DNA of 64,000 bases from Curtobacterium sp. VKM Ac-1395 (GTDB lineage: Bacteria > Actinomycetota > Actinomycetes > Actinomycetales > Microbacteriaceae), in the NCBI RefSeq assembly GCF_015350975.1, contig NZ_JADKRX010000003.1, forward strand, positions 124,001 to 188,000, given 5' to 3'. Each line of letters starts with the position of its first letter. Position 1 is the first letter of the stretch. A program made the translations under genes and the position numbers. The notes beneath the pieces are model-generated. The model was not told the DNA's origin and did no database searches. It saw only the letters and a list, made by a program, of their open reading frames with translations. Below, one piece after another: positions 8,965 to 20,226 of the stretch.

Positions 8965-9262
8965 TCAGGGCTCGCTCCGAGGTCGCTGCGTGGTTGCTCG
9001 GAGGCCGGACCCCCGTTCGAACTGCAGCTCGTCGGTGCGTCGCTCGAACGCCAGGTGCACCACCGCGGACGGGACGGGGTGGTGGTGACCTCGAAGCGCT
9101 CCTCCATGCCTTCCAGCCCGTCCCAGAGCCGCTCGCCACGACCGAGCACGATCGGCACGACCGAGCACGATCGGCACGACCACCACGTGCAGGTGGTCGA
9201 CCAGACCTCGACGCCGATGCCCGGTCCTCAGGCGCTGGCGAACTCGTCGTCCAGCCCGGTGT
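8965..9262 (-). pseudogene. Remnant of a DHFR/RibD-C-family reductase gene
   Basis: Only the last third of a dihydrofolate-reductase-like domain remains (a phrase like VDHLHVVVVPIVLGRGERLWDG, interrupted, then PSAVVHLAFERR). Two small tandem duplications break it: a 19-bp unit (9141-9178) and a 5-bp unit GGACG (9067-9076). They shift the frame and then restore it, because 24 is divisible by three. The N-terminal nucleotide-binding part is missing. It lies between hsp20 and the alanine-dehydrogenase-like gene. The family call rests on my recognition of the C-terminal motif. Confidence 0.6.
9141..9178. repeat. 19-bp perfect tandem duplication
   Basis: The unit GACCGAGCACGATCGGCAC occurs at 9141-9159 and again at 9160-9178. 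It lies in the DHFR-family remnant, where its length (not a multiple of three) shifts the reading frame. Confidence 0.9.
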
Positions 9263-9277
9263 CGCCGCCGGGGGCGC

Positions 9278-10441
9278 TCACGAGGCCTCGTGGGGGTACT
9301 CGGCTGTGCGACCCTGGAACGCGAGGATCGCCTCGTTGCGGACCTGCCCGTCCTCGATCTCGATCGCGCGGCGGATCGGCTCACACTCCTGCCAGGACGT
9401 GCTGCCCTCCATCACCGGGCGGAGGAACGGCAGCAGCGCCTCGCTGATCTCCCACGTAGCCGAGTTCCAGAGCAGCGACGGGCTGTGGTCGACGGCGTAG
9501 TAGTTGGTCCACTCCCCGACGGTCACCAGGGGCTCGTCGAAGGACGTCGCGCGGGCCCAGTCGAAGCCCATGCCCGGGTCGATGGAGACGTCGACGACGA
9601 GGCTGCCGGGACGGAAGGCCTCGAGGTCGACCTCGCGCAGGTACGTCAGGGGTGCGTTCGGGTCCTGCAGCGTGCAGTTCACGACGATGTCGTGGTCGGC
9701 GAGGTACGGCGCGAGTGCGACCGGCCCGTCGGGGGTGTCCACCGTGCTGGCGTAGGGCGCTTCCGGGTCGTGCTCGAAGTGCAGCATGTCGACGGACGGG
9801 ATCGGTGACCCCACCGCGGCGATGTCCCGGTTCGTCAGGACGCGCACGTCGTGGACCCCGTGGGCGTTCAGTGCGGTGACGGCACCGCGGGCCGTGGCCC
9901 CGAAGCCGATCACCACGGCGGAGAGCCGGCGGCCGTAGTCCCCGGTCGACCCGCAGAGCTGCATCGCGTGGATGACCGAGCAGTAGCCGGCGAGCTCGTT
10001 GTTCTTGTGGAAGACGTGCAGCCCGAAGCCGCCGTCGGCGCGCCAGTGGTTCATGGCCTCCCAGGCGATGAGCGTCAGACGCTTGTCGATCGCGGACTGG
10101 GTCAACGCTCGGTCCTGCACGCAGTGCGGCCAGCCCCAGAGCACCTGGCCGTCGCGCAGGTCCTCGAGGTCGGCGGCGAGGGGCTTCGGGAGCAGGACGA
10201 CGTCAGCGGCGGCGATGACCTCGGCACGGTCGGCCATCGCCCGGACGAGCGGTTCGATCTGGTCGTCCGGGACACCGAACCGCAGCCCGTACCCACGCTC
10301 CAGCACCATCGCGGCGCGCAGGTCGGGGTCGATCCGGGCGATGTGCGCCGGGTGGACGGGGAGTCGCCACTCGTCGGCCTTGGCGGAGTGCGCCAGGACG
10401 CCGAGTCGGAGCAGCGGCGTTGCGGTTCCTGCAGTGGTCAT
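9278..10441 (-). CDS. Alanine dehydrogenase / N5-(carboxyethyl)ornithine synthase-like protein
   Basis: The 387-residue protein belongs to the AlaDH/PNT family. The N-terminal catalytic half carries RLPVHP (residues 26-31) and LLPKP (83-87); the C-terminal half has a Rossmann motif GFGATARG (179-186). Close relatives are often named N5-(carboxyethyl)ornithine synthase, an NAD(P)H-dependent reductive coupling of pyruvate to ornithine, or alanine dehydrogenase; the sequence alone does not decide. ATG 10441 follows a TAGTGT -10 box by 6 nt, so the mRNA is probably leaderless. It is divergent from the ABC exporter operon, with 99 bp between. Confidence 0.75.
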   Translation of the reverse strand: MTTAGTATPLLRLGVLAHSAKADEWRLPVHPAHIARIDPDLRAAMVLERGYGLRFGVPDDQIEPLVRAMADRAEVIAAADVVLLPKPLAADLEDLRDGQVLWGWPHCVQDRALTQSAIDKRLTLIAWEAMNHWRADGGFGLHVFHKNNELAGYCSVIHAMQLCGSTGDYGRRLSAVVIGFGATARGAVTALNAHGVHDVRVLTNRDIAAVGSPIPSVDMLHFEHDPEAPYASTVDTPDGPVALAPYLADHDIVVNCTLQDPNAPLTYLREVDLEAFRPGSLVVDVSIDPGMGFDWARATSFDEPLVTVGEWTNYYAVDHSPSLLWNSATWEISEALLPFLRPVMEGSTSWQECEPIRRAIEIEDGQVRNEAILAFQGRTAEYPHEAS

Positions 10442-10540
10442 GGGGCGACACTACGGGGCGCTCGCGGCGGCCGATCACACATCAGATCTCATACTCCCGG
10501 GGGAGGCGCCCGACGCACCGGTTGTCCTAGCGTGGCGGGC

Positions 10541-11473
10541 GTGATCGAAGTCGACCATCTCACCAAACGTTACGGTCCCAAGCTCGCCGTCGACGACGTC
10601 TCGTTCGTCGTGCGGCCGGGCAGCGTGACCGGATTCCTCGGCCCCAACGGCGCCGGGAAGTCCACCACGATGCGCATGATCATGGGACTGGACCGGCCGA
10701 GCGCCGGCACCGCGACCGTGAACGGGAAGCCCTACACCGCCTTCCGTGACCCGCTCCGGCAGGTCGGTGCCCTGCTCGAGGCCAAGGCGGTCCACTCCGG
10801 CCGCAGCGCCTACAACCACCTGCTCTCCCTCGCGGCCACCCACGGCATCCCCAAGTCCCGCGTGCACGAGGTCATCGACATGACCGGGCTCGACTCCGTC
10901 GCCCGCAAGCGCGTCGGCGGCTTCTCGCTCGGCATGGGCCAGCGCCTCGGGATCGCCGCGGCACTGCTCGGCGACCCGAAGACCCTCATCCTCGACGAGC
11001 CGGTCAACGGCCTCGACCCCGACGGCGTGCTGTGGGTCCGACAGCTCGCCCGACGGATGGCCGCAGACGGCCGCACCGTCTTCCTCTCCAGCCACCTGAT
11101 GAGCGAGATGGCGCAGACCGCGGACCGCGTGGTCGTCCTCGGCCGCGGCAAGGTGCTCGCGGACGCCCCCATCGCCGAGTTCGTCGCCGGTGGCGGTTCC
11201 GCCGACGGCCAGGGTGGTGGCAGCCGCGTCGTCGTGCGCACCCCGTCACCGGACCAGCTCTTCGCCGCGATCGGGCAGGCCGCCACCGCGGTCACCCCGC
11301 GGGAGGACGGCTCCTTCCTCGTGGTCGGCCCCGACGCCCCGACGGTCGGCACCATCGCCGCCCGGGCCGGCGTCGTGCTCCACGAGCTCACCCCGATGGG
11401 CGCCAGCCTGGAAGAGGCGTACATGGCCCTCACCCGCGACGACGTCGAGTACCGATCGGAGGGCGTCCGATGA
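10541..11473 (+). CDS. ABC exporter ATP-binding protein (drug/antibiotic type)
   Basis: This 310-residue ATPase powers the membrane partner encoded next. Walker A GPNGAGKST begins at residue 34, the signature is FSLGMGQ, and Walker B is LILDEPVNGLD. A C-terminal extension of about 100 residues is typical of ABC-2 drug exporters of the BcrA/DrrA kind. GTG 10541 is the start; a TAGCGT -10 box ends 7 nt earlier, so the transcript is probably leaderless. The stop overlaps the permease ATG (ATGA). The substrate is unknown. Confidence 0.87.
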   Translation: MIEVDHLTKRYGPKLAVDDVSFVVRPGSVTGFLGPNGAGKSTTMRMIMGLDRPSAGTATVNGKPYTAFRDPLRQVGALLEAKAVHSGRSAYNHLLSLAATHGIPKSRVHEVIDMTGLDSVARKRVGGFSLGMGQRLGIAAALLGDPKTLILDEPVNGLDPDGVLWVRQLARRMAADGRTVFLSSHLMSEMAQTADRVVVLGRGKVLADAPIAEFVAGGGSADGQGGGSRVVVRTPSPDQLFAAIGQAATAVTPREDGSFLVVGPDAPTVGTIAARAGVVLHELTPMGASLEEAYMALTRDDVEYRSEGVR

Positions 11474-12342
11474 GCGCGCCGAACACCGCCCCGGCCCAGC
11501 AGCACCGACACCGCGAGGCCTCCGTGCCGGACAGCGTCGGCCTGAGCTTCCCGCGCCTGGTCCGCAGCGAGTGGATCAAGCTCCGCAGCATCCGCTCCAC
11601 CATCTGGTGCTACGCGATCCTGGTCCTGCTGACGATCGCGATGGCCGTGCTCCTCGGCGCCGTCATCGACCAGGGCGCGGGACAGATGCCGCAGGAGGCC
11701 GTCAACGGCGGCTTCGTCAACATCAACACGGTCAGCGTCTCCCTGACGGCGCTCGTCGTCGGCGTGCTCGGTGTGCTCATCATCACGGGTGAGTACGGCA
11801 CCGGGCAGGTCCGCTCCACCTTCACGGCCGACCCGGGCCGCACGGGCGTCATCCTCGCCAAGGCGTTCGTCCTGGCGCTCGCGACCTTCGTCGTCAGCGT
11901 CGTCTCGACCGGGATCGGTGTCGCGGTCTCCGCCGGCCTGCAGGCCAGCAAGGACATCCACCCCGAGTTCACCGACCCGGCGGTGTGGATGCCGATCCTC
12001 GGCGCCTCCGTGTACGTGACGCTGGTGGCACTGTTCGCCTACGGCATCGGCCTGCTGGTCCGGTCGAGCGCCGGCGGCATCGCCATCACGCTCGGGATCT
12101 TCCTGGTGCTCCCGGTGATCCTGTCGATCTTCGCCGAGCTGACGCAGGCCCAGTGGGTCGCCGACGTCGCGACCCTGCTGCCGTCCGCGGCGGGCGCCGA
12201 GCTGTACGCGTACTCGTACAGCGGTGCGAGGGACGTGACCGGTCTCGTGCTGAACGGCTGGAGCGGCTTCGGCGTCCTCGCGGGCGAGGTCGTCGTCATC
12301 GGTGCGATCGCCATCGCGGTGGCGCGCTCGCGCGACGTCTGA
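11470..12342 (+). CDS. ABC-2 type permease
   Basis: The 290-residue protein is the membrane half of the exporter. A hydrophilic N terminus ends in RLVRSEWIKLRSIRST, a phrase common in ABC-2 permeases, followed by six hydrophobic helices and the extracellular/cytoplasmic motif ITGEYGTGQVRSTF. It is translationally coupled to the ATPase gene. A diverged palindromic repeat follows 12 nt after the stop, so the operon is probably two genes long. Confidence 0.85.
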   Translation: MSAPNTAPAQQHRHREASVPDSVGLSFPRLVRSEWIKLRSIRSTIWCYAILVLLTIAMAVLLGAVIDQGAGQMPQEAVNGGFVNINTVSVSLTALVVGVLGVLIITGEYGTGQVRSTFTADPGRTGVILAKAFVLALATFVVSVVSTGIGVAVSAGLQASKDIHPEFTDPAVWMPILGASVYVTLVALFAYGIGLLVRSSAGGIAITLGIFLVLPVILSIFAELTQAQWVADVATLLPSAAGAELYAYSYSGARDVTGLVLNGWSGFGVLAGEVVVIGAIAIAVARSRDV

Positions 12343-12354
12343 CCCGACCACCTC

Positions 12355-12401
12355 CGGACAGGACGCCCCACTCGCCGGACGCGCGTGGAGCCTCCTGTCC
12401 G
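12355..12401. terminator. Palindromic terminator-like repeat, diverged copy 3
   Basis: Arms 12355-12371 and 12385-12401 (17 nt each) pair at 15 positions around a 13-nt loop and keep the family outer arm (CGGACAGGA / TCCTGTCCG). It lies 12 nt after the ABC permease stop, which supports a terminator role despite the altered centre. Confidence 0.5.
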
Positions 12402-12470
12402 TCGTCGTGTCGCGGCCATACGCTCGACGATGGCCGTGCACCGCGGCACCGGACGACGAGGACGTACGCC

Positions 12471-13988
12471 ATGACCAGACCACTCCGCTTCGACGGGACG
12501 ACCATCGCCGACGCGGAGGGACTCGTCGCCACCGCGCAGGGGTGGCTCGTCGGCTCCGGCCCGGTCTCCGTCATGCTCGACACGGACGTCACCGAGTTCC
12601 ACCGTCAGGGCTGGACCTCGTGGTCGCCCTCGGGCTGGGCGCCGCTCGACGAGAGCCCCCTGCGGATCTGGGGTGACGACGAGCGCCGCCAGACCGCCGA
12701 CGACGCCGCCAACGACACGCCGGACCGGCACGAGGGCAACGGCGTCGGCGCCGTCCGCCTGGCCGACGGACGCATGCTGCTGCTCGGCGCCCTCGGCCTC
12801 GGGACGCCGCGTGTCGGGGCGTCGCCCACGGAACTCAGCGGCACCGTCGAGCACGACGACGGCTCGGGCTGGTTCCTCGGCCTGGGACCCGAGGACACGG
12901 TCTTCGCCCGGTACGCGGAACTGCTCCGGGAACGCCTCGGGACCCCGACCGCTCCCCCGGTCTCGACGCTCTGGTGCAGCTGGTACTCGTACTTCGAGGA
13001 CATCGACGAACAGCTGATCACGACCGCCGTCGACGACCTCGGCACGCTGCCGATCGACGTCGTGCAGGTCGACGACGGGTGGGAGACGATCGTCGGCGAC
13101 TGGCTGCCGAACGAGAAGTTCCCGTCCGGCATGGACGCCCTCGCCGAGCGACTGGCCGCACGGGGTTCGCGCCCAGGGCTCTGGCTCGCCCCGCTGATCT
13201 GCCTGCCCGGTTCACGGACGGCCACGGAGCACCCCGAGTGGTTGGTGCAGGACCCGTCCGGCGGCCCGCTCGTCGCCGGGCACAACTGGGACTCGCACTA
13301 CTTCGCCCTCGACACCACCCGACCCGACGTGCAGGAGCACCTCGACACGGTCATCCGCCGGGTGGTCGGCTGGGGCTTCCGCTACCTCAAGCTCGACTTC
13401 ATGTACGCCGGGGCCCTGCGTGGTGTCCGGCACCAGGACCTGCCGCGCGAGCGCGTCTGGCGTGACGCCGTCGAGCTGATCCGCGCAGCCGCCGGGCCCG
13501 ACGTGTACCTGCTCGGCTGCGGTGTGCCGATGGTGCCGTCGGTCGGGGTCTTCGACGGCGTGCGTGTCGGACCGGACACCGCATCCGACTGGACCTACCC
13601 GGCCTGCGTCGCCGACCCGAGCCACGAGGGCGGGCTCAACGGCGTCGCCGCGTCGGTCCCCCGGCTCTGGATGCGCGACCTGTACCAGGTCGACCCCGAC
13701 GTCGCGTACTTCCGCTCCCGCGAGACCACCCTGACAGCCGAGCAGCGACAGACGATCGCCGACCTCGCCGTCGTGTCCGGCTTCCGGTCGACCTCAGACC
13801 CCGTCGCGTGGCTCGAGGCCCCGGAGCGCGTGGCGCTGGAGCGGTTCCTCGGACAGTCCCCCGTCGTCGAGCGTCTCGGGGACGACCGGTTCCTGGTGGA
13901 CGGCCGGACGGTGGACTTCGGTCCGGCGGTGCGCGAAGCGCGCGCCGGTCGCGAGCGGCTGACCGAAGCAGGGTCCCGCTCCGTCTGA
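12471..13988 (+). CDS. GH36-type alpha-galactosidase
   Basis: The 505-residue enzyme has an N-terminal beta-sandwich (about 1-160) and a TIM barrel. It should hydrolyse terminal alpha-galactosides such as raffinose, melibiose or galactomannan side chains. The nucleophile is Asp309 in RYLKLDFMY and the acid/base is Asp369 in VRVGPDTASDW; VVQVDDGWE (about 198-206) marks strand 2. There is no signal peptide, so it is cytoplasmic and implies uptake of oligosaccharides, yet no sugar transporter or LacI regulator is adjacent. ATG 12471 is preceded by a weak GAGGA. A palindromic terminator follows 12 nt after the stop. Confidence 0.85.
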   Translation: MTRPLRFDGTTIADAEGLVATAQGWLVGSGPVSVMLDTDVTEFHRQGWTSWSPSGWAPLDESPLRIWGDDERRQTADDAANDTPDRHEGNGVGAVRLADGRMLLLGALGLGTPRVGASPTELSGTVEHDDGSGWFLGLGPEDTVFARYAELLRERLGTPTAPPVSTLWCSWYSYFEDIDEQLITTAVDDLGTLPIDVVQVDDGWETIVGDWLPNEKFPSGMDALAERLAARGSRPGLWLAPLICLPGSRTATEHPEWLVQDPSGGPLVAGHNWDSHYFALDTTRPDVQEHLDTVIRRVVGWGFRYLKLDFMYAGALRGVRHQDLPRERVWRDAVELIRAAAGPDVYLLGCGVPMVPSVGVFDGVRVGPDTASDWTYPACVADPSHEGGLNGVAASVPRLWMRDLYQVDPDVAYFRSRETTLTAEQRQTIADLAVVSGFRSTSDPVAWLEAPERVALERFLGQSPVVERLGDDRFLVDGRTVDFGPAVREARAGRERLTEAGSRSV

Positions 13989-14000
13989 GGTGACCAGCTG

Positions 14001-14045
14001 CGGACTGGAGGCTCGGTGCCGGCCCGGCACCGAGCCTCCAGTCCG
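14001..14045. terminator. Palindromic terminator-like repeat, copy 4
   Basis: Two perfect 21-nt arms (14001-14021 and 14025-14045) surround a 3-nt loop, 12 nt after the alpha-galactosidase stop. The arms carry the T-A/A-T version of the family (CTGGAGGCTCGG / CCGAGCCTCCAG). Confidence 0.75.
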
Positions 14046-14184
14046 TCCGGGGTCGTGTCGCCGGACGCGACCGGTCACGACACCCCGTCGGCCAGCCGCC
14101 GAGTGGCCATAGATGGTCGCTGCGCGCCGCCTCGGCCGACGGGTGGTGACCGCTCGGCAGACGTGAGCGGGGTGTTGCGGCCGG

Positions 14185-14901
14185 TCAGGGGACGTCGCTG
14201 GGGCGACTCGCCGCGGTCTCGACGCCGAGCTGTTGGGCGAGCCGGTCGACGCGGCCGTGGATCGCGTCGCGGACGGCCGACCACGCGACGACTCCGCCGA
14301 CTCCGGCCTCGACGAACCAGTCCTGCACCTGGGTCCCGCGTGGCACGGGGCAGGTGTCCCGACAGCCGATGCGGACGACGAGGTCAGCGTCGACGAGGTC
14401 CTGCGGCTCGAGGCGGACCGGGACCGCGTCGGGGGCGATTTCGACACCGTCGAGGTGCATGGCGACCACCACCTCGGGGTCGACCCGGACGGCAGGGTCG
14501 AGCGCCCTCGCGGTGACCTCGACGTCCGGTGGCAGGAGCCGGCGGAAGTACGCCACCGCGATCGGAGCGCGACCGGCGCCGTGCGGACTCACGACGACGA
14601 GCCGACGGAAGCCGTCCTGCGGCAGGTCAGTCGGCGCCCCGGGCGTGTGCCCGGTCAGCACGCGGACCTGGCGCACGATGCCCACCACGACGCCCGCGCC
14701 GAACAGCGGTCCGCCGAGCAGGAGGAGCAGCCAGAGCGGGGCGTGTCGGGAACCGCCGCCGATCGTCGCGCCGAGGTCCCAGTCGACCGACGCGGCGATC
14801 CAGAGCATCGCGAGGACGAAGCCGGCGCTGCCGAGGGAGACCGCCCAAGGGTTCCGGAGGAGCCAGGCCTGCGACTCCTGGGGCGGCGAGTGGTTCGTCA
14901 C
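14185..14901 (-). CDS. Membrane-anchored ArsC/LMW-phosphatase-like protein with Ser in place of catalytic Cys
   Basis: The 238-residue protein has two N-terminal helices (about 20-38 and 56-80) and a C-terminal domain resembling low-molecular-weight phosphatase/arsenate reductase. The P-loop C-x5-R is here Ser105-PHGAG-Arg111, so the nucleophilic Cys is gone. A later stretch (IGCRDTCPVPRG, then QDWFVEAG) matches the ArsC-type C-terminal region and still has two cysteines. It may be a pseudo-enzyme that binds rather than cleaves phosphate-like ligands; that is an inference. GTG 14901 lies 6 nt after a TACGAT -10 box (leaderless). It is divergent from the membrane protein gene at 14995. Confidence 0.65.
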   Translation of the reverse strand: MTNHSPPQESQAWLLRNPWAVSLGSAGFVLAMLWIAASVDWDLGATIGGGSRHAPLWLLLLLGGPLFGAGVVVGIVRQVRVLTGHTPGAPTDLPQDGFRRLVVVSPHGAGRAPIAVAYFRRLLPPDVEVTARALDPAVRVDPEVVVAMHLDGVEIAPDAVPVRLEPQDLVDADLVVRIGCRDTCPVPRGTQVQDWFVEAGVGGVVAWSAVRDAIHGRVDRLAQQLGVETAASRPSDVP

Positions 14902-14994
14902 GCTGCGATCGTAGGGGCGCGGCCGGGGTGCGGGGGTTCGGCGCGGCCGGGGTGCGTATGCTCGACGGACGACGACGACGGCGAGGGGGCCATC

Positions 14995-15564
14995 ATGCGC
15001 AGTGTCACTGATGGGGACGGTCGGCTCGTCATGCGCGTCGCGGCGACGCGGATGGTGGTCGTGCCGGTCGTGGTGTTCGTCGTGACGAGCATCCTCGTCG
15101 GATTCCTCGTCGGTCTGGGCTGGCGCTCCGTGGTCATCGGGGCCTCGGTTGCGGGGCTGGCCCTCATGATCACGGCGTTGACGCTGCGGGCGTCGTTGGG
15201 GACGCCCTGGTCGAACGGCAGGCGGTTCGGTGACCAGGACGCCGTCCGCCGGATCCGCCGGGCGATCCGACGCGACTCGATCGACGACCTGACCGCGGAC
15301 GAACGGCTCGTCGTCGCCGACTACGCGTTCCAGTCCCGGGACGGCATCGTGCTGTCGGCGGTGCAGAGCGCTGGGCTCGGGCTGTCGATCGCGATGAACC
15401 AGCTGGCGCGGGTCATCGGTCACGGAGCGGACGTGTCCAGCAGCGCGCTCCTCGTCGCCGCCGTCGGGCTCGTCGTCGCAGCGGTCATGATCGCCGTGGT
15501 GCAGCAGCGGCGGACCCGGCAGTTCCTCGAGCACTACGAGCGGATCGATCCCGTCCGGGTCTGA
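14995..15564 (+). CDS. Membrane protein of unknown function
   Basis: The 189-residue protein has two N-terminal hydrophobic helices (about 19-39 and 43-62), a charged central region with many Arg/Asp (about 65-110), and one or two C-terminal helices (about 120-168). I do not recognise a family. ATG 14995 has a GAGGGGG site 4-5 nt upstream; TATGCT at 14957-14962 is a likely -10. It is divergent from the ArsC-like gene, sharing a 93-bp promoter region. Confidence 0.65.
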   Translation: MRSVTDGDGRLVMRVAATRMVVVPVVVFVVTSILVGFLVGLGWRSVVIGASVAGLALMITALTLRASLGTPWSNGRRFGDQDAVRRIRRAIRRDSIDDLTADERLVVADYAFQSRDGIVLSAVQSAGLGLSIAMNQLARVIGHGADVSSSALLVAAVGLVVAAVMIAVVQQRRTRQFLEHYERIDPVRV

Positions 15565-15715
15565 GCCCGCCGATACGCTCCCGGGCATCAACCTCATCCG
15601 TGACACCGGCCGTGGCACGTGGCTGCTCGCGCGGGCCGGCCACCGCGACGACGTCGGCGGCATCGCGGGGACGGGTTTCACGGCGTACGCCCGCATCCTC
15701 CACCCACTGACCGCG

Positions 15716-16444
15716 GTGCGCGAGGACCGGTCGATCGCTGACGAGTACGGGGACCACCCCACGCTCGACGAGGTGCGCTGGCGATGGGCCGACGTCGCCG
15801 CCCGCACCGGGAGTGCCGTGCATCCCTCGGTGACCTGGGCGTCCGCCGGCGGGCGGGACGATGAGTCCGACGTGCCGTTCCCGGACGGGTGGCGCGCGTC
15901 GCCGCCCGAGGAGGGCTGGTTCGACCCCGTGGTGCTCGCAGCGCTCACGGAACACCTGGCTCGCGCGACCTCGACGCCCGACGACCTCGTGGCCGGGTTC
16001 TGGGACGGCCGGAGCGACCTCAGCGGCGGCTCGATGCTGGCGTTCGGGTGGCAGGGGGACGATTCCCCGACTGCCGAGGAGCGCGCCGAAGTCGGCGAGT
16101 GGATGGCTGAGCACACTGCAGCGCACGGGCGCGACCAGGACGCGGTCGCGGCGTCGTTGTCGCTGCCCCGGTTCGCCTGGCCCGGTCGGGACCTCATCCT
16201 GGCTGCGACCGACCTTTCCACGCTGGCCGACCCGACGTGGCTCGAGCACACGCGCCTCGGGCCCCTGGTCCCGCTGGAGCACACGCCACAGATGCTCTGG
16301 CCCGAGGACCACGCCTGGGTGATGGCATCGGAGATCGATTGGGACTCGACGATCATTGCCGGCTCACGGTCCCTGGTCGACGCCGTGCTGGCCGACGAGC
16401 GGTTCGAGGCGTTCGAGGTGGCCGAGGACAGCTCGCTGTCCTGA
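15716..16444 (+). CDS. Protein of unknown function (coding extends upstream to about 15587)
   Basis: The 242-residue frame is soluble, acidic and Trp-rich (RWRWADVAAR, later LEHTPQMLWPEDHAWVMASEIDWDS). I do not recognise the family. The first canonical start is GTG 15716, but protein-like sequence continues 43 codons upstream (NLIRDTGRGTWLLARAG, then FTAYARILHPL) with no ATG, GTG or TTG. At its upstream end an ATC codon (15587) stands 7 nt after a TACGCT -10 box, the spacing seen for leaderless genes here, so translation may begin at ATC. It is downstream of and co-directional with the membrane protein gene. Confidence 0.6.
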   Translation: MREDRSIADEYGDHPTLDEVRWRWADVAARTGSAVHPSVTWASAGGRDDESDVPFPDGWRASPPEEGWFDPVVLAALTEHLARATSTPDDLVAGFWDGRSDLSGGSMLAFGWQGDDSPTAEERAEVGEWMAEHTAAHGRDQDAVAASLSLPRFAWPGRDLILAATDLSTLADPTWLEHTRLGPLVPLEHTPQMLWPEDHAWVMASEIDWDSTIIAGSRSLVDAVLADERFEAFEVAEDSSLS

Positions 16445-16447
16445 CGG

Positions 16448-16717
16448 TCAGCCGAACTGGTACCCGACCTGGGGACCCCAGAGGACGTCCGCGACGGCGA
16501 CGGCGAGGAATGCCGCGCTGAGCACGGCGACCACGATCAGCACGACGACGAACGGTCGGGTCAGCCGTGCTCGTCGCCACCAGAGCAGCGCCACGAACGC
16601 GATGCCGAGGCCCGGGAGCACGAGGTTGCTGAGTACCTGAAGGACGACGATCAGACCGAGCAGTGCCGGGGTCACCCGTCGGGGCGGAGCCGTGTCGACA
16701 TCGGTCGTCGTGGTCAT
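16448..16717 (-). CDS. Small membrane protein of unknown function
   Basis: The 89-residue protein has two hydrophobic helices (about 18-46 and 55-78) separated by a basic WWRRARLTR turn. A GAGGAG site 6 nt before ATG 16717 supports the start. It is convergent with the preceding gene (3 nt apart). No family is recognised. Confidence 0.6.
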   Translation of the reverse strand: MTTTTDVDTAPPRRVTPALLGLIVVLQVLSNLVLPGLGIAFVALLWWRRARLTRPFVVVLIVVAVLSAAFLAVAVADVLWGPQVGYQFG

Positions 16718-16882
16718 GCGCGCTCCTCGGTCCGGGGCCGCTGGGTCAAGCGGCGGTCAACCGTAGCGACTGTCAGCGGAGGGCGTCCAGGACGGCGGCT
16801 TCCTCCCAGCACGTCACCCTTGCTCACCGTGGCGAGAACTTCGCAGAGTCCCGGGCATGCACGGTTCGTCCCGGACGTGCCG

Positions 16883-17566
16883 TCACCGGGAGCGCGGCGC
16901 TCGACCCGCGTCGTTCTGCGGCCCGATGATGCCGAGCTGCGCGAGAACGGCCTGCTCGCCAGTGGTCGTGATGCTCCAGGTCGGGCGGTTGAAGGCTTTC
17001 CGGGACAGGCGCACTCGCTGCTCGTCAACTGGTTGCGCTGACCGCGGAGCCACCCGTGTGACGCCGTTCGGTCCATAGCCGAGCTTGTACGACACACGCA
17101 GCGACGCGGTGTTCCAGGCCGCAGCGCTCGACTCCGCCCATTCCGCGCCGAGGACGTCGAAGGCGAACAGCAGCAACGCGGCCCGCATCTCCGTGCCCAC
17201 TCCCTGACCTTGTGCGTTCTTGGTCAACCACGAGCCGGAATCGACGGTCTTGCGGTCAGTGAAGGCGTGGGCGGCGAGGTCCTGCGCTCCGACCACCGTG
17301 CCGTCGAGGATGACAGCGAACTGGATCGTCCAGCTCTGCGGAGAGACCTGGCGCAGGCTCCATTGATGCATCGCGAGATTCCGAGGAAGGTCAGCAGGAG
17401 AAGCATCCGTCCACGGGAATCCGAACGGCATCCGGTCCGGATCGTGGATGCCGTCGAGTGCGGCCCTCACCAACGCCGGGAGATCCGCATCTTGGACGGG
17501 ACGCAGCAGCAGCCTGGGGGTCCGGATCTCGAGTCCGAACAACGGCCACAGTTCTCCGAGGTTCAT
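16883..17566 (-). CDS. GNAT acetyltransferase (RimJ/RimL type)
   Basis: The 227-residue protein resembles RimJ/RimL-like N-acetyltransferases, which move an acetyl group from acetyl-CoA to an amine. A typical N terminus (IRTPRLLLRPVQDAD) is followed by motif A (GSWLTKNAQGQGVGTEMR) and a motif B-like segment (ASLRVSYKLGYG). The target is unknown. ATG 17566 is preferred over the longer frame because a TACCGT -10 box ends 6 nt upstream, indicating a leaderless transcript. It is the first of several acetyltransferase-type genes in this stretch. Confidence 0.8.
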   Translation of the reverse strand: MNLGELWPLFGLEIRTPRLLLRPVQDADLPALVRAALDGIHDPDRMPFGFPWTDASPADLPRNLAMHQWSLRQVSPQSWTIQFAVILDGTVVGAQDLAAHAFTDRKTVDSGSWLTKNAQGQGVGTEMRAALLLFAFDVLGAEWAESSAAAWNTASLRVSYKLGYGPNGVTRVAPRSAQPVDEQRVRLSRKAFNRPTWSITTTGEQAVLAQLGIIGPQNDAGRAPRSR

Positions 17567-17703
17567 GCGGTGACGGTACCTGCGCAGCTTGCCTCTGCGC
17601 CGCACGTCACGCCTGACGGAACGCTGGTTCGCGCCGAGGATGGCTGCTCTTCTCGCTGCGTCCGTTCAGATCACGCGGTCAGCCTGTCCCGCTGATTGAT
17701 CTT

Positions 17704-18258
17704 TCAGTGAGACGGAGCAGTTCCCAGGCCGAGTCCGGTGGCGATGTGTTCGGCGGTCGTGTCTGCGGTGACCTCGCTGGTGTCGAGCCACCAACCGCGG
17801 TCTCCGAAGTCGCGACGCATCGCTTGGTCGAGCTCGTCGTACCCGTCGAAGGTGAACCGCTCGTTCGCTTCCCTGCTCGCGTTGCGTTCCCTGCACGTTC
17901 CTGTGCTCGGAGCGAGAACGACGAGGGATGAGGAATCCGACGAGAGATGCTCGAGGAGCCGGTTGAGGTGTGCTCCGTCCGGGATGACGCAGTCGATGAT
18001 GGTGACGAAGCCAGCGGCGGTGAAGTTCTGGGTGAGTGCAGCGAGGTTGCGGTAGCTGAGCTCGACCTGGCGGGCGGCTTCGTCGGCGGGCTGACCAAGC
18101 GGCCATACGGCTCCGGCGATGATCATCGCGTTGAGGTCGTCGGCTGCGATCCGCGCGGCGCGGGGCAGTTTCGCCGCGAGGAGGCGACTCACGGTGGATT
18201 TGCCGGCGCCGGGCATGCCGGTCAGGATGACTGTCTCCACGGAGCCATCTGACCACAT
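17704..18258 (-). CDS. Small P-loop kinase-like ATPase
   Basis: The 184-residue protein has a Walker A motif GMPGAGKST (residues 14-22) close to the N terminus, an IAADDLNAMI acidic segment and an arginine-bearing lid region (CRERNASREANERF). It belongs with small AAA/zeta-toxin/chloramphenicol-phosphotransferase-like kinases; the substrate is not evident. The start is ATG 18258. The 285 bp upstream (18259-18543) hold no convincing gene, and about 100 bp separate it from the acetyltransferase downstream. Confidence 0.7.
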   Translation of the reverse strand: MWSDGSVETVILTGMPGAGKSTVSRLLAAKLPRAARIAADDLNAMIIAGAVWPLGQPADEAARQVELSYRNLAALTQNFTAAGFVTIIDCVIPDGAHLNRLLEHLSSDSSSLVVLAPSTGTCRERNASREANERFTFDGYDELDQAMRRDFGDRGWWLDTSEVTADTTAEHIATGLGLGTAPSH

Positions 18259-18543
18259 CTGTGCTCTCCGGCTCTCCGCCGGTTCTCCACCCGTCAGCGT
18301 GATTCCCTTGGCTCAGAAGTCGCGGGTGTCCGGTACCCGATGCGCTACCGGGCAGCGTGTCGTCGCAACCCCTTGTCCAGGACCCTGATCGCGCTCGGAG
18401 GCGTGGACCTTCTTGCCGGCGAACTGCTTGCGATCTTCTCGAACCACCAGCAGACCGCACTGCCTTTCCGGGAGCCGACCGGCCGTCAAGACGTCACCTG
18501 CAAGGGCCGGAAGGACCGTTGAGCGCGATCCTCCCGGCCTCGT

Positions 18544-19020
18544 TCACAGTGCCCGGGCGTAGTCGACTGTTGGGTACGCGATGAAGCCGAGCGATTCGTA
18601 GAGCGCTCGTGCTGGCGCGTGGAACTCGTCGCCTCCGGTCCCGATGTGGACAACGGTGACTCCGAGCTGTTCAAGGCGGCTCAGGACGGTCGAGCAGAGG
18701 GCTCGCGCGACCCCTCGACGTCGAGCGTCCGGGTGGACAGCGACCATCTCCAGCCGCCCGGCCGAGTCACCCGTGGTGTTCCAGCCGACGTATCCGAGGA
18801 CCTTGCAGTGTTCCTCCGCCAGGGTGATGAGCCTTCCCTCGTCGGGAGCGAGCAGGGACGGGACCTCGTGGCGGTAGTCGTCTTCCCAGCGTCCGTGGTC
18901 GTGCGCGGTCACTTCGGGTCGAAGTTGGACGAGCGAGCCGGCAAGGAGCGGTCGGAAGACCTCGATCGTCAAGTCGGTCAGCGCGGGCAGGTCGAGCGGT
19001 GTGCAGTCGCGGATGTGCAT
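18544..19020 (-). CDS. GNAT acetyltransferase
   Basis: This 158-residue single-domain GNAT protein shows the acetyl-CoA-binding motif A clearly (MVAVHPDARRRGVARAL, about residues 92-108) and a C-terminal ALYESLGF motif B. The acceptor is unknown; such stand-alone enzymes modify antibiotics, polyamines or protein N termini. An AAAGAAG purine run precedes ATG 19020. It is divergent from the acetyltransferase at 19218. Confidence 0.8.
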   Translation of the reverse strand: MHIRDCTPLDLPALTDLTIEVFRPLLAGSLVQLRPEVTAHDHGRWEDDYRHEVPSLLAPDEGRLITLAEEHCKVLGYVGWNTTGDSAGRLEMVAVHPDARRRGVARALCSTVLSRLEQLGVTVVHIGTGGDEFHAPARALYESLGFIAYPTVDYARAL

Positions 19021-19217
19021 GGTTCTGCTTCTTTCATGAGCGGGCTGAAGGCTCCACGCCCGTGGTCGGGGTGGAGGAGAGCGACGGCCGGGGCCGTCCC
19101 TTCAGGAGCGCGTGCGCCAGCTCGCGAAGCAGTTCATTCGGCCACGGTATCCGGCGGGACGGCGCCGGGAAAGAGCCCGCTGCCCCTCGGCTGCTGAGGC
19201 AGCCCTAGGATCGCTGG

Positions 19218-19760
19218 ATGCAACTCGAGCGTCCGTCTGAACGGCTCTTCAGATCGTTCCAGCAGTCCATGCTCGAGTGGGAGGGCGCGCACCAGGACGG
19301 TGCCGGCATCCGTGAGGCAGCACTGTTGGCGACGGAAGGCGGCTTCGCTCGGTGGGTGACGCAACTGCGTGCCGAGGAGGACGTCTCAGCGGGCGACGGG
19401 TACGTCACTTGCAGCTACTACTGGATGGTCGAGGACGACGAGTACCTGGGAAGCATCGCGCTCCGTCACGAGTTGAACGACTTTCTCCGCTCCTACGGCG
19501 GTCACATCGGCTACAGCGTTCGCCCGAGTGGCCGACGCCGAGGGCTTGCCACACGGGCACTCCGGGGCGTCCTCCGTATCGCTCACCAGCGTGGTCTCGA
19601 AGAAGTGCTGCTGACCTGCGACGCGAAGAACCTCGGCTCCCGTCGCGTGATCGAGGGCAACGGGGGTCGATTCGAGAACGAGGTGACCGACTCTGCCGGG
19701 CGAGTGTTCCACCGTTTCTGGATGTCGACGGACGCTGAGCCCGCCGAGCTGCATCGCTGA
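19218..19760 (+). CDS. GNAT acetyltransferase
   Basis: The 180-residue protein has a GNAT fold with motif A SVRPSGRRRGLATRALRGVL (about 105-124) and a C-terminal segment (CDAKNLGSRRVIEGNGG) usual in this family. ATG 19218 is placed 6 nt after TAGGAT (19206-19211), so the transcript is probably leaderless. It is convergent with the cytidine-deaminase-like gene. The substrate is unknown; it adds to a run of drug-modification-type genes. Confidence 0.8.
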   Translation: MQLERPSERLFRSFQQSMLEWEGAHQDGAGIREAALLATEGGFARWVTQLRAEEDVSAGDGYVTCSYYWMVEDDEYLGSIALRHELNDFLRSYGGHIGYSVRPSGRRRGLATRALRGVLRIAHQRGLEEVLLTCDAKNLGSRRVIEGNGGRFENEVTDSAGRVFHRFWMSTDAEPAELHR

Positions 19761-19785
19761 CGGATCGCATCTCGGACGCTTCGTC

Positions 19786-20226
19786 TCAGACCTGTTCAGC
19801 GCGGTGGTCGAAGGCAAGCGGCAGCAGGTCGCTCGCTGTCACGCTGATGAGGCCGTCTGGTCCGGGCAGGATGACGCGCACGTGCGGGTGGTAGTCAGCG
19901 AGGACCTGACGGTCGCGGCCACACGGGCTCTTGACGCCCCGGCCGTGGTTGCCCACGGCGACCACGTGCGTCAGCTCGGTGGCGCCGCCGGCGCGGGCTG
20001 CTCCGAGCGCCACGAGTTCGGCACAGGGGCCGCCCGTGAAGTGGTGGACGTTCACGCCGGTGAAGATCCGGCCGTCTGCGGCGCGGACAGCTGCGCCCAT
20101 GGTGTGCACACCGTCCTCGTCCGGGCCCGCATCGGTGACGGCATCGATGGTCGAACGAGCTGCTTCGACAAGGGCGTGGTCATCCTCCGTGAGTTCAGCG
20201 GCGGACGGCGGGAGGGCACGGAACAT
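19786..20226 (-). CDS. Cytidine/blasticidin-S deaminase-like protein
   Basis: This 146-residue protein belongs to the zinc-dependent cytidine deaminase family, which hydrolyses an exocyclic amine of cytidine-like substrates. The first zinc/catalytic motif is GPCAEL (Cys68, Glu70). The second, normally P-C-x2-C, reads PCGRDRQ, so the last Cys is Asp105. Activity may be altered, or Asp may act as ligand. ATG 20226 lies 6 nt after a TAGTGT box (leaderless). It is divergent from the chloramphenicol acetyltransferase gene, with 176 bp between. Confidence 0.75.
   Translation of the reverse strand: MFRALPPSAAELTEDDHALVEAARSTIDAVTDAGPDEDGVHTMGAAVRAADGRIFTGVNVHHFTGGPCAELVALGAARAGGATELTHVVAVGNHGRGVKSPCGRDRQVLADYHPHVRVILPGPDGLISVTASDLLPLAFDHRAEQV

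Follow-up and report, generated by a model that had tools for sequence, protein, structure and literature searches.

What does a domain of the ArsC/LMW-phosphatase fold do at the membrane once its nucleophilic cysteine has been replaced by serine? This question is raised by a gene of Curtobacterium sp. VKM Ac-1395 within the stretch of 64,000 nucleotides analysed here, called the window throughout. The original prediction, made from the sequence alone, had placed the gene at 14185-14901 and read its product as a membrane-anchored protein with S105-PHGAG-R111 in place of the catalytic C-x5-R; the coordinates are correct, with the gene on the minus strand (Table 1), and the loop codons AGT CCG CAC GGC GCC GGT CGC bear out the residues. 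That the open reading frame has arisen by chance is ruled out by the homology of its product to a PDB entry and by the match to the ArsC fold.

Table 1. Positions in the window of the gene, its parts and the adjoining inverted repeat
Feature	Position	Strand	Remarks
Gene of the membrane-anchored Ser-P-loop ArsC-like protein	14185..14901	minus	238 aa; GTG start at 14901, TGA stop ending 14185
N-terminal membrane anchor, residues 1-95	14617..14901	minus	hydrophobic at 21-39 and 58-76; homologs occur as small stand-alone proteins in other Microbacteriaceae
ArsC/LMW-phosphatase-fold domain, residues 99-230	14212..14607	minus	sequence matches and predicted structure
Altered P-loop S105-P-H-G-A-G-R111	14569..14589	minus	replacements C to S, V to P and N to G; Arg unchanged
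C180-R-D-T-C184	14350..14364	minus	aligns with C162 and C166 of C. glutamicum ArsC1'
Inverted repeat, perfect, 22 nt, 1-nt gap	14001..14045	unstranded	between the 14185-14901 gene and the convergent glycosidase (Melibiase)-family gene

The assignment to the fold is carried by sequence and predicted structure alike. In a phmmer search the best PDB match was 3t38, an arsenate reductase of C. glutamicum (E 2.1e-8, residues 101-221), which a profile of nine relatives retrieved at 9e-12, with other ArsC entries and a YwlE ranking behind. An AlphaFold2 model built from six sequences, with pLDDT block means of 72-90 in the domain (residues 101-230), could be superimposed with residues 96-224 on the ArsC of pI258 (2cd7; Z 19.0, 127 aligned residues, 1.9 A), and the Foldseek top match was 1jf8 (E 4.9e-10), a C10S/C15A mutant of ArsC which retains the fold. 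The ArsC/LMW-phosphatase fold that had been proposed for the domain is thus confirmed, and an unrelated fold was not seen. Block means of 39-54 for residues 1-90 mark the membrane part as poorly modelled, and a model of a full Frigoribacterium protein, based on two sequences, was discarded for its mean pLDDT of 42.

While membership in the LMW-phosphatase/ArsC fold superfamily follows from the P-loop after strand 1 and from the predicted structure, the scores against curated family models stay below their cut-offs. With the Pfam model PF01451 LMWPc (cut-off 23.2 bits), 17.7 bits were obtained for the window protein, 21.5, 16.7 and 11.9 bits for its Curtobacterium orthologs and 15.5, 15.9 and 19.9 bits for three Frigoribacterium proteins; with the NCBIfam model TIGR02689 of glutaredoxin-type arsenate reductases the window protein scored 19.6 bits against a cut-off of 157.6. 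A whole-genome LMWPc search (E 0.001) recovered five genes with an intact Cys from the same genome, the 14185-14901 gene not being among them. Among the hallmarks of ArsC, the nucleophilic Cys of C-x5-R, the Asn at loop position 4 and the Asp-Pro pair are missing from the window protein, and the second and third Cys of the thioredoxin-linked enzymes are present (C180/C184). The protein is not a channel-ArsC fusion either, as the N-terminal part of 95 residues comprises two hydrophobic windows only. The loss of the catalytic residue is common to the orthologs and maintained under selection, as would be expected of a pseudophosphatase, and the name 'arsenate reductase' or 'phosphatase', if given from similarity alone, would mislead.

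The protein of 238 aa was found in 4 of 66 Curtobacterium genomes including that of the window (threshold 1e-40), the three other orthologs having the same length and being 81-87% identical to it, while a related protein with a Ser at the same site is encoded by 5 of 16 Frigoribacterium genomes (threshold 1e-20), among them the records F. endophyticum and MEB024; the identity between the domain of the window protein and the Frigoribacterium domains is 33-44%. At E 1e-15, 250 of 396 genomes of the order contain a match, and the best 30 of these loci comprise 29 with a Cys P-loop and the window's own; the family-level search, in 398 genomes drawn from a larger group, reached down to E 1e-19. No relative was confirmed in the viral contigs searched. 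The plasmid matches amount to 96 records, in which identity stays below 60% and the match always spans less than 80% of the query; the eight listed are annotated as arsenate reductase ArsC.

The nine distinct Ser-type sequences (4 Curtobacterium, 5 Frigoribacterium) all bear the loop S-P-x-G-x-G-R. Compared with them were 62 Cys-type proteins of the order, a subset of all matches with three members from the window's own genome, of which all 62 have C at the first and N at the fourth loop position, and 60 have V at the second. The loss of the nucleophile with retention of the Arg accordingly extends to all nine Ser-type sequences, and Cys-bearing orthologs, which would have pointed to a recent mutation, were not seen. 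Five of the seven loop columns are invariant among the nine sequences versus 31 of 132 columns overall (p 0.008); for the active-site segments, which were picked after viewing the alignment, 19 of 30 columns are invariant, a figure given no weight here. Fixed in all nine Ser types and absent from the 62 Cys types are S105, P106, G108, L174, R177, P187 and A222. The Asp-Pro pair, present in all 62 Cys-type proteins and in 5/5 Frigoribacterium Ser types, occurs in none of the four Curtobacterium proteins, which possess A199 followed by G, A or P.

The C-terminal cysteine pair CRDTC, held to be kept, stands as such in the four Curtobacterium sequences, but the second Cys is Phe in 5/5 Frigoribacterium sequences, so that C184 is present in four of the nine Ser types and only C180 in all of them. 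The first Cys is likewise found in 61 of the 62 Cys-type proteins. In the alignment with 3t38, S105, C180 and C184 correspond to C88, C162 and C166 of the enzyme, Cg_ArsC1'.

Can such a loop still accommodate an anion? In PTP structures the backbone NH at loop position 2 takes part in holding the phosphate, and a Pro there eliminates it. As Val to Pro and Asn to Gly are fixed in the loop and the Asp-Pro pair is absent from the Curtobacterium forms, the anion site may be weakened. On the other hand, the class I PTP motif CSxGxGR, as given in PMC2661844, has Gly at position 4, and owing to the resemblance of the new loop to this pattern, Gly in place of Asn need not destroy the site. Judged by its residues, phosphate binding by the altered loop is plausible.

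In an unrooted tree calculated with the loop columns excluded and two long Cys-type rows left out, the nine Ser types fall on one side of a branch with support 100/98, versus 60 Cys-bearing ArsC-like proteins, and a quick unrooted tree of all 71 rows recovered the same split with support 99. The end branch of one sequence (L054) is very long in the two trees (2.33 and 2.63), and its own placement is unsure. The Ser codon at position 105 is AGY in 9/9 genes, one step from TGY, and the Ser codons elsewhere in these nine genes are mostly TCN (90/131). One old change from Cys to Ser followed by retention is the simplest reading, and the catalytic Cys appears to have become Ser before the Curtobacterium and Frigoribacterium forms parted. 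A recent mutation of a normal ArsC is ruled out by the presence of Ser in 9/9 sequences, all on one side of the branch.

Selection on the domain is purifying, with dN/dS values of 0.25-0.30 in 6/6 Curtobacterium pairs; the values are 0.16-0.59 for the anchor of the four Curtobacterium copies and 0.24-0.42 in pairwise comparison over the whole protein, all being simple Nei-Gojobori estimates from four sequences. These values rule out a pseudogene.

The domain is preceded by a membrane anchor, for which two membrane helices had been expected. With a hydrophobic window defined as a Kyte-Doolittle mean of at least 1.6 over 19 residues, two hydrophobic stretches of the window protein agree with this expectation, but in two of its three Curtobacterium orthologs (L007, L008) the second stretch alone passes the threshold, so that two of the four proteins fall short of it in the first. 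Positively charged residues ahead of stretch 1 and behind stretch 2 lead us to infer a cytoplasmic orientation. Among 398 genomes of the family, residues 1-91 of the anchor matched in 13 at E 1e-4, of which two carry the fused gene (the window's own and G029). For the other 11 matches no ArsC domain follows downstream in the open frame, one frame (L115) looking truncated, and one stand-alone anchor is located in a Frigoribacterium (G122) without the fused form at threshold 1e-20. The stand-alone loci (L105-L115) make up a family of small membrane proteins with two helices, found by itself in other genera of the Microbacteriaceae, which serves as the anchor here.

The Frigoribacterium Ser types also have two hydrophobic stretches in their anchor, which is a different one with no detectable relation to that of Curtobacterium (hhalign probability 0.1%), and they bear in addition a C-terminal domain of ~190 residues without a Pfam match (e.g. 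L049 8418-9005). This C-terminal domain is also encoded separately, in short frames, in three genomes (G380, G343 and G385; L125, L126 and L127). That the anchors of the two genera are not detectably related suggests that membrane placement matters for the domain. The dead ArsC domain gives the impression of an adaptor, shuffled and tethered to the membrane, and its occurrence on two anchors and with an extra domain would be expected of an adaptor rather than of a decaying enzyme.

The genomic neighbourhood of the gene offers few clues to a pathway. A Melibiase-family gene that ends at 13988 converges on it, and the inverted repeat between the two is possibly a two-way terminator without a U-run; a terminator scan requiring a T run and a promoter scan found none near the gene. 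Of the 18 congeners that match the end of the Melibiase-family protein (E 1e-60), 14 are without the Ser-type gene anywhere at E 1e-40, and the flanks of these 14 Melibiase-family genes, 1500 bases in 13 and 177 bases in L096, contain no Ser-type gene. On the other side, the divergent neighbour 14995-15564 is a membrane gene whose product no Pfam model matches above its cut-off; this gene adjoins the Ser-type gene in 4/4 carriers and has relatives in 7 of 66 congeners, namely the four carriers and, elsewhere in the genome, three non-carriers. A long plus-strand open frame (14233-15564) overlaps the Ser-type gene antisense and is in frame with this membrane gene. By eye, the neighbours look different in two Frigoribacterium records, and no ars gene or redox operon was recognised near the Ser-type gene among the open reading frames of 9000-20000. 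A role in an ars operon was rejected, as no ars gene was recognised nearby by eye, the neighbours are the Melibiase-family gene and genes that no Pfam model matches above its cut-off, and the LMWPc genes of the genome lie on other contigs (C1, C11 and C14, with the Ser-type gene on C12). Two of these LMWPc genes adjoin each other on the same strand of contig C11 (L002 and L005; G000, 96348-98577), and the product of L005 (CKHNAGRS) keeps the nucleophile and is missing the GCxxxC cysteines.

The reading which we prefer, and to which we give about even chances of being right, is a membrane-tethered pseudoenzyme, an ArsC domain without its nucleophilic Cys that has been retained as a non-catalytic binder of an oxyanion or a phosphorylated partner. 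On this view the loss of the Cys would predate the split between the Curtobacterium and Frigoribacterium forms, and selection would since have preserved the domain as a binding module, which probably faces the cytoplasm. The oxyanion or phosphorylated partner may be held without turnover by the retained Arg and Gly, together with the remodelled G-x-G-R loop and the newly fixed R177 near C180, in a way similar to STYX and to C-to-S mutants of phosphatases, which trap their substrate, and the anchor would place this binding at the membrane. We infer a lack of catalysis, and an oxyanion or a phosphorylated partner would most likely be what is bound or sensed. The original prediction finds support for the fold, the hydrophobic stretches and the lost nucleophile with its kept Arg; the sensing or tethering of a phosphate-like ligand which it proposed is a putative function. 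Against the preferred reading it has to be said that the loop has gained a Pro and lost its Asn, that the Asp-Pro pair is missing in Curtobacterium, that no shared gene neighbourhood names a pathway and that the presence of the gene is patchy; the poor model of the membrane part and the first hydrophobic stretch, too weak in two Curtobacterium proteins, also count against it. In a bolder version, which we put forward tentatively, the protein might be a bacterial membrane-tethered counterpart of STYX, with S-P-x-G-x-G-R forming an anion cradle flanked by R177 and C180, and the domain might serve in Microbacteriaceae as an interchangeable oxyanion or phosphoprotein receptor module on different anchors and with an extra domain.

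A possible though somewhat doubtful alternative is a plain scaffold, in which the domain would be dead for catalysis and anion binding alike and would act as a protein-protein surface at the membrane, the loop being kept for structure. The Val to Pro and Asn to Gly replacements, the missing Asp-Pro pair in Curtobacterium and the joining of the domain to different anchors and an extra domain would all suit a scaffold, but five of seven loop residues including the Arg are invariant despite the low domain identity to Frigoribacterium, and as the position-4 Gly is also part of the class I PTP motif in PMC2661844, the loop may still cradle an anion.

An unlikely candidate is a thiol sensor, in which C180 would now be the reactive residue, partnered by C184 in Curtobacterium, and would at the membrane sense oxidants, mycothiol or As(III). 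C180 is universal in the Ser types and by homology to C82 of ArsC lies beside the P-loop; its equivalent in B. subtilis ArsC is described in PMC6193951 as forming a disulphide bond with the P-loop Cys, and PMC6514093 terms C162/C166 of Cg_ArsC1' catalytic. However, the replacement of the second Cys by Phe in all Frigoribacterium sequences and the failure to recognise an ars or redox operon nearby by eye argue against such a sensor, and since nearly all Cys-type proteins possess the first Cys anyway, it could be a relic.

That the protein is still an enzyme, an arsenate reductase or phosphatase working via Ser105 or another residue, is very improbable although the overall fold and the Arg are kept, because the attack is made by the P-loop Cys in ArsC (according to PMC6193951), Ser in its place abolishes activity in PTPs (according to PMC2661844), and the Asn and, in Curtobacterium, also the Asp-Pro pair are lost. 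Hardly any credence is due to a decaying gene or sequencing artefact, for which the patchy presence in Curtobacterium might speak, since nine distinct sequences agree, their frames are open and dN/dS is well below 1.

Returning to the membrane-tethered pseudoenzyme, several known systems resemble it in part. Cg_ArsC1', the thioredoxin-linked arsenate reductase behind 3t38 and the best PDB sequence match, also has its ArsC domain behind an N-terminal extension and shares the aligned C-terminal cysteines. Unlike the window protein, it is a crystallised enzyme with the nucleophile C88 in a loop CVHNAGR instead of SPHGAGR, and it is not known to be membrane-anchored. In actinobacterial aquaglyceroporin-ArsC and ACR3-ArsC fusions (Wu, Song and Beitz 2010, cited via PMC9775063 and PMC12838822) a preceding membrane part likewise keeps the ArsC domain at the membrane; these fusions however combine an active reductase with a channel or transporter, whereas here two hydrophobic stretches precede a domain without a nucleophile. 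STYX and other pseudophosphatases have a C-x5-R lacking the catalytic Cys and are used for binding, STYX binding ERK2 in competition with DUSP4 (PMC10211241); in contrast to the window protein, STYX as described there has the class I PTP fold of animals with Gly, not Ser, at the Cys site and no ArsC domain. The C7S form of the arginine phosphatase YwlE (PDB 4kk4) shows the LMW-phosphatase fold with Ser for Cys, the Ser being phosphorylated according to the title of the entry, but is an engineered mutant of an active enzyme. Among the matches listed, the titles and abstract starts of the open-licence literature mention no Ser-type ArsC, and those on pseudophosphatases are mostly concerned with eukaryotes.

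The Ser-type proteins of Curtobacterium and Frigoribacterium provide a natural Cys-to-Ser version of the ArsC fold. Selection maintains it, two anchors without detectable relation attach it to the membrane, and the former enzyme domain has probably become a module for binding or sensing. If phosphate, arsenate or phosphoproteins are bound, the domain would amount to a substrate trap supplied by nature and to a new bacterial way of sensing such ligands at the membrane.
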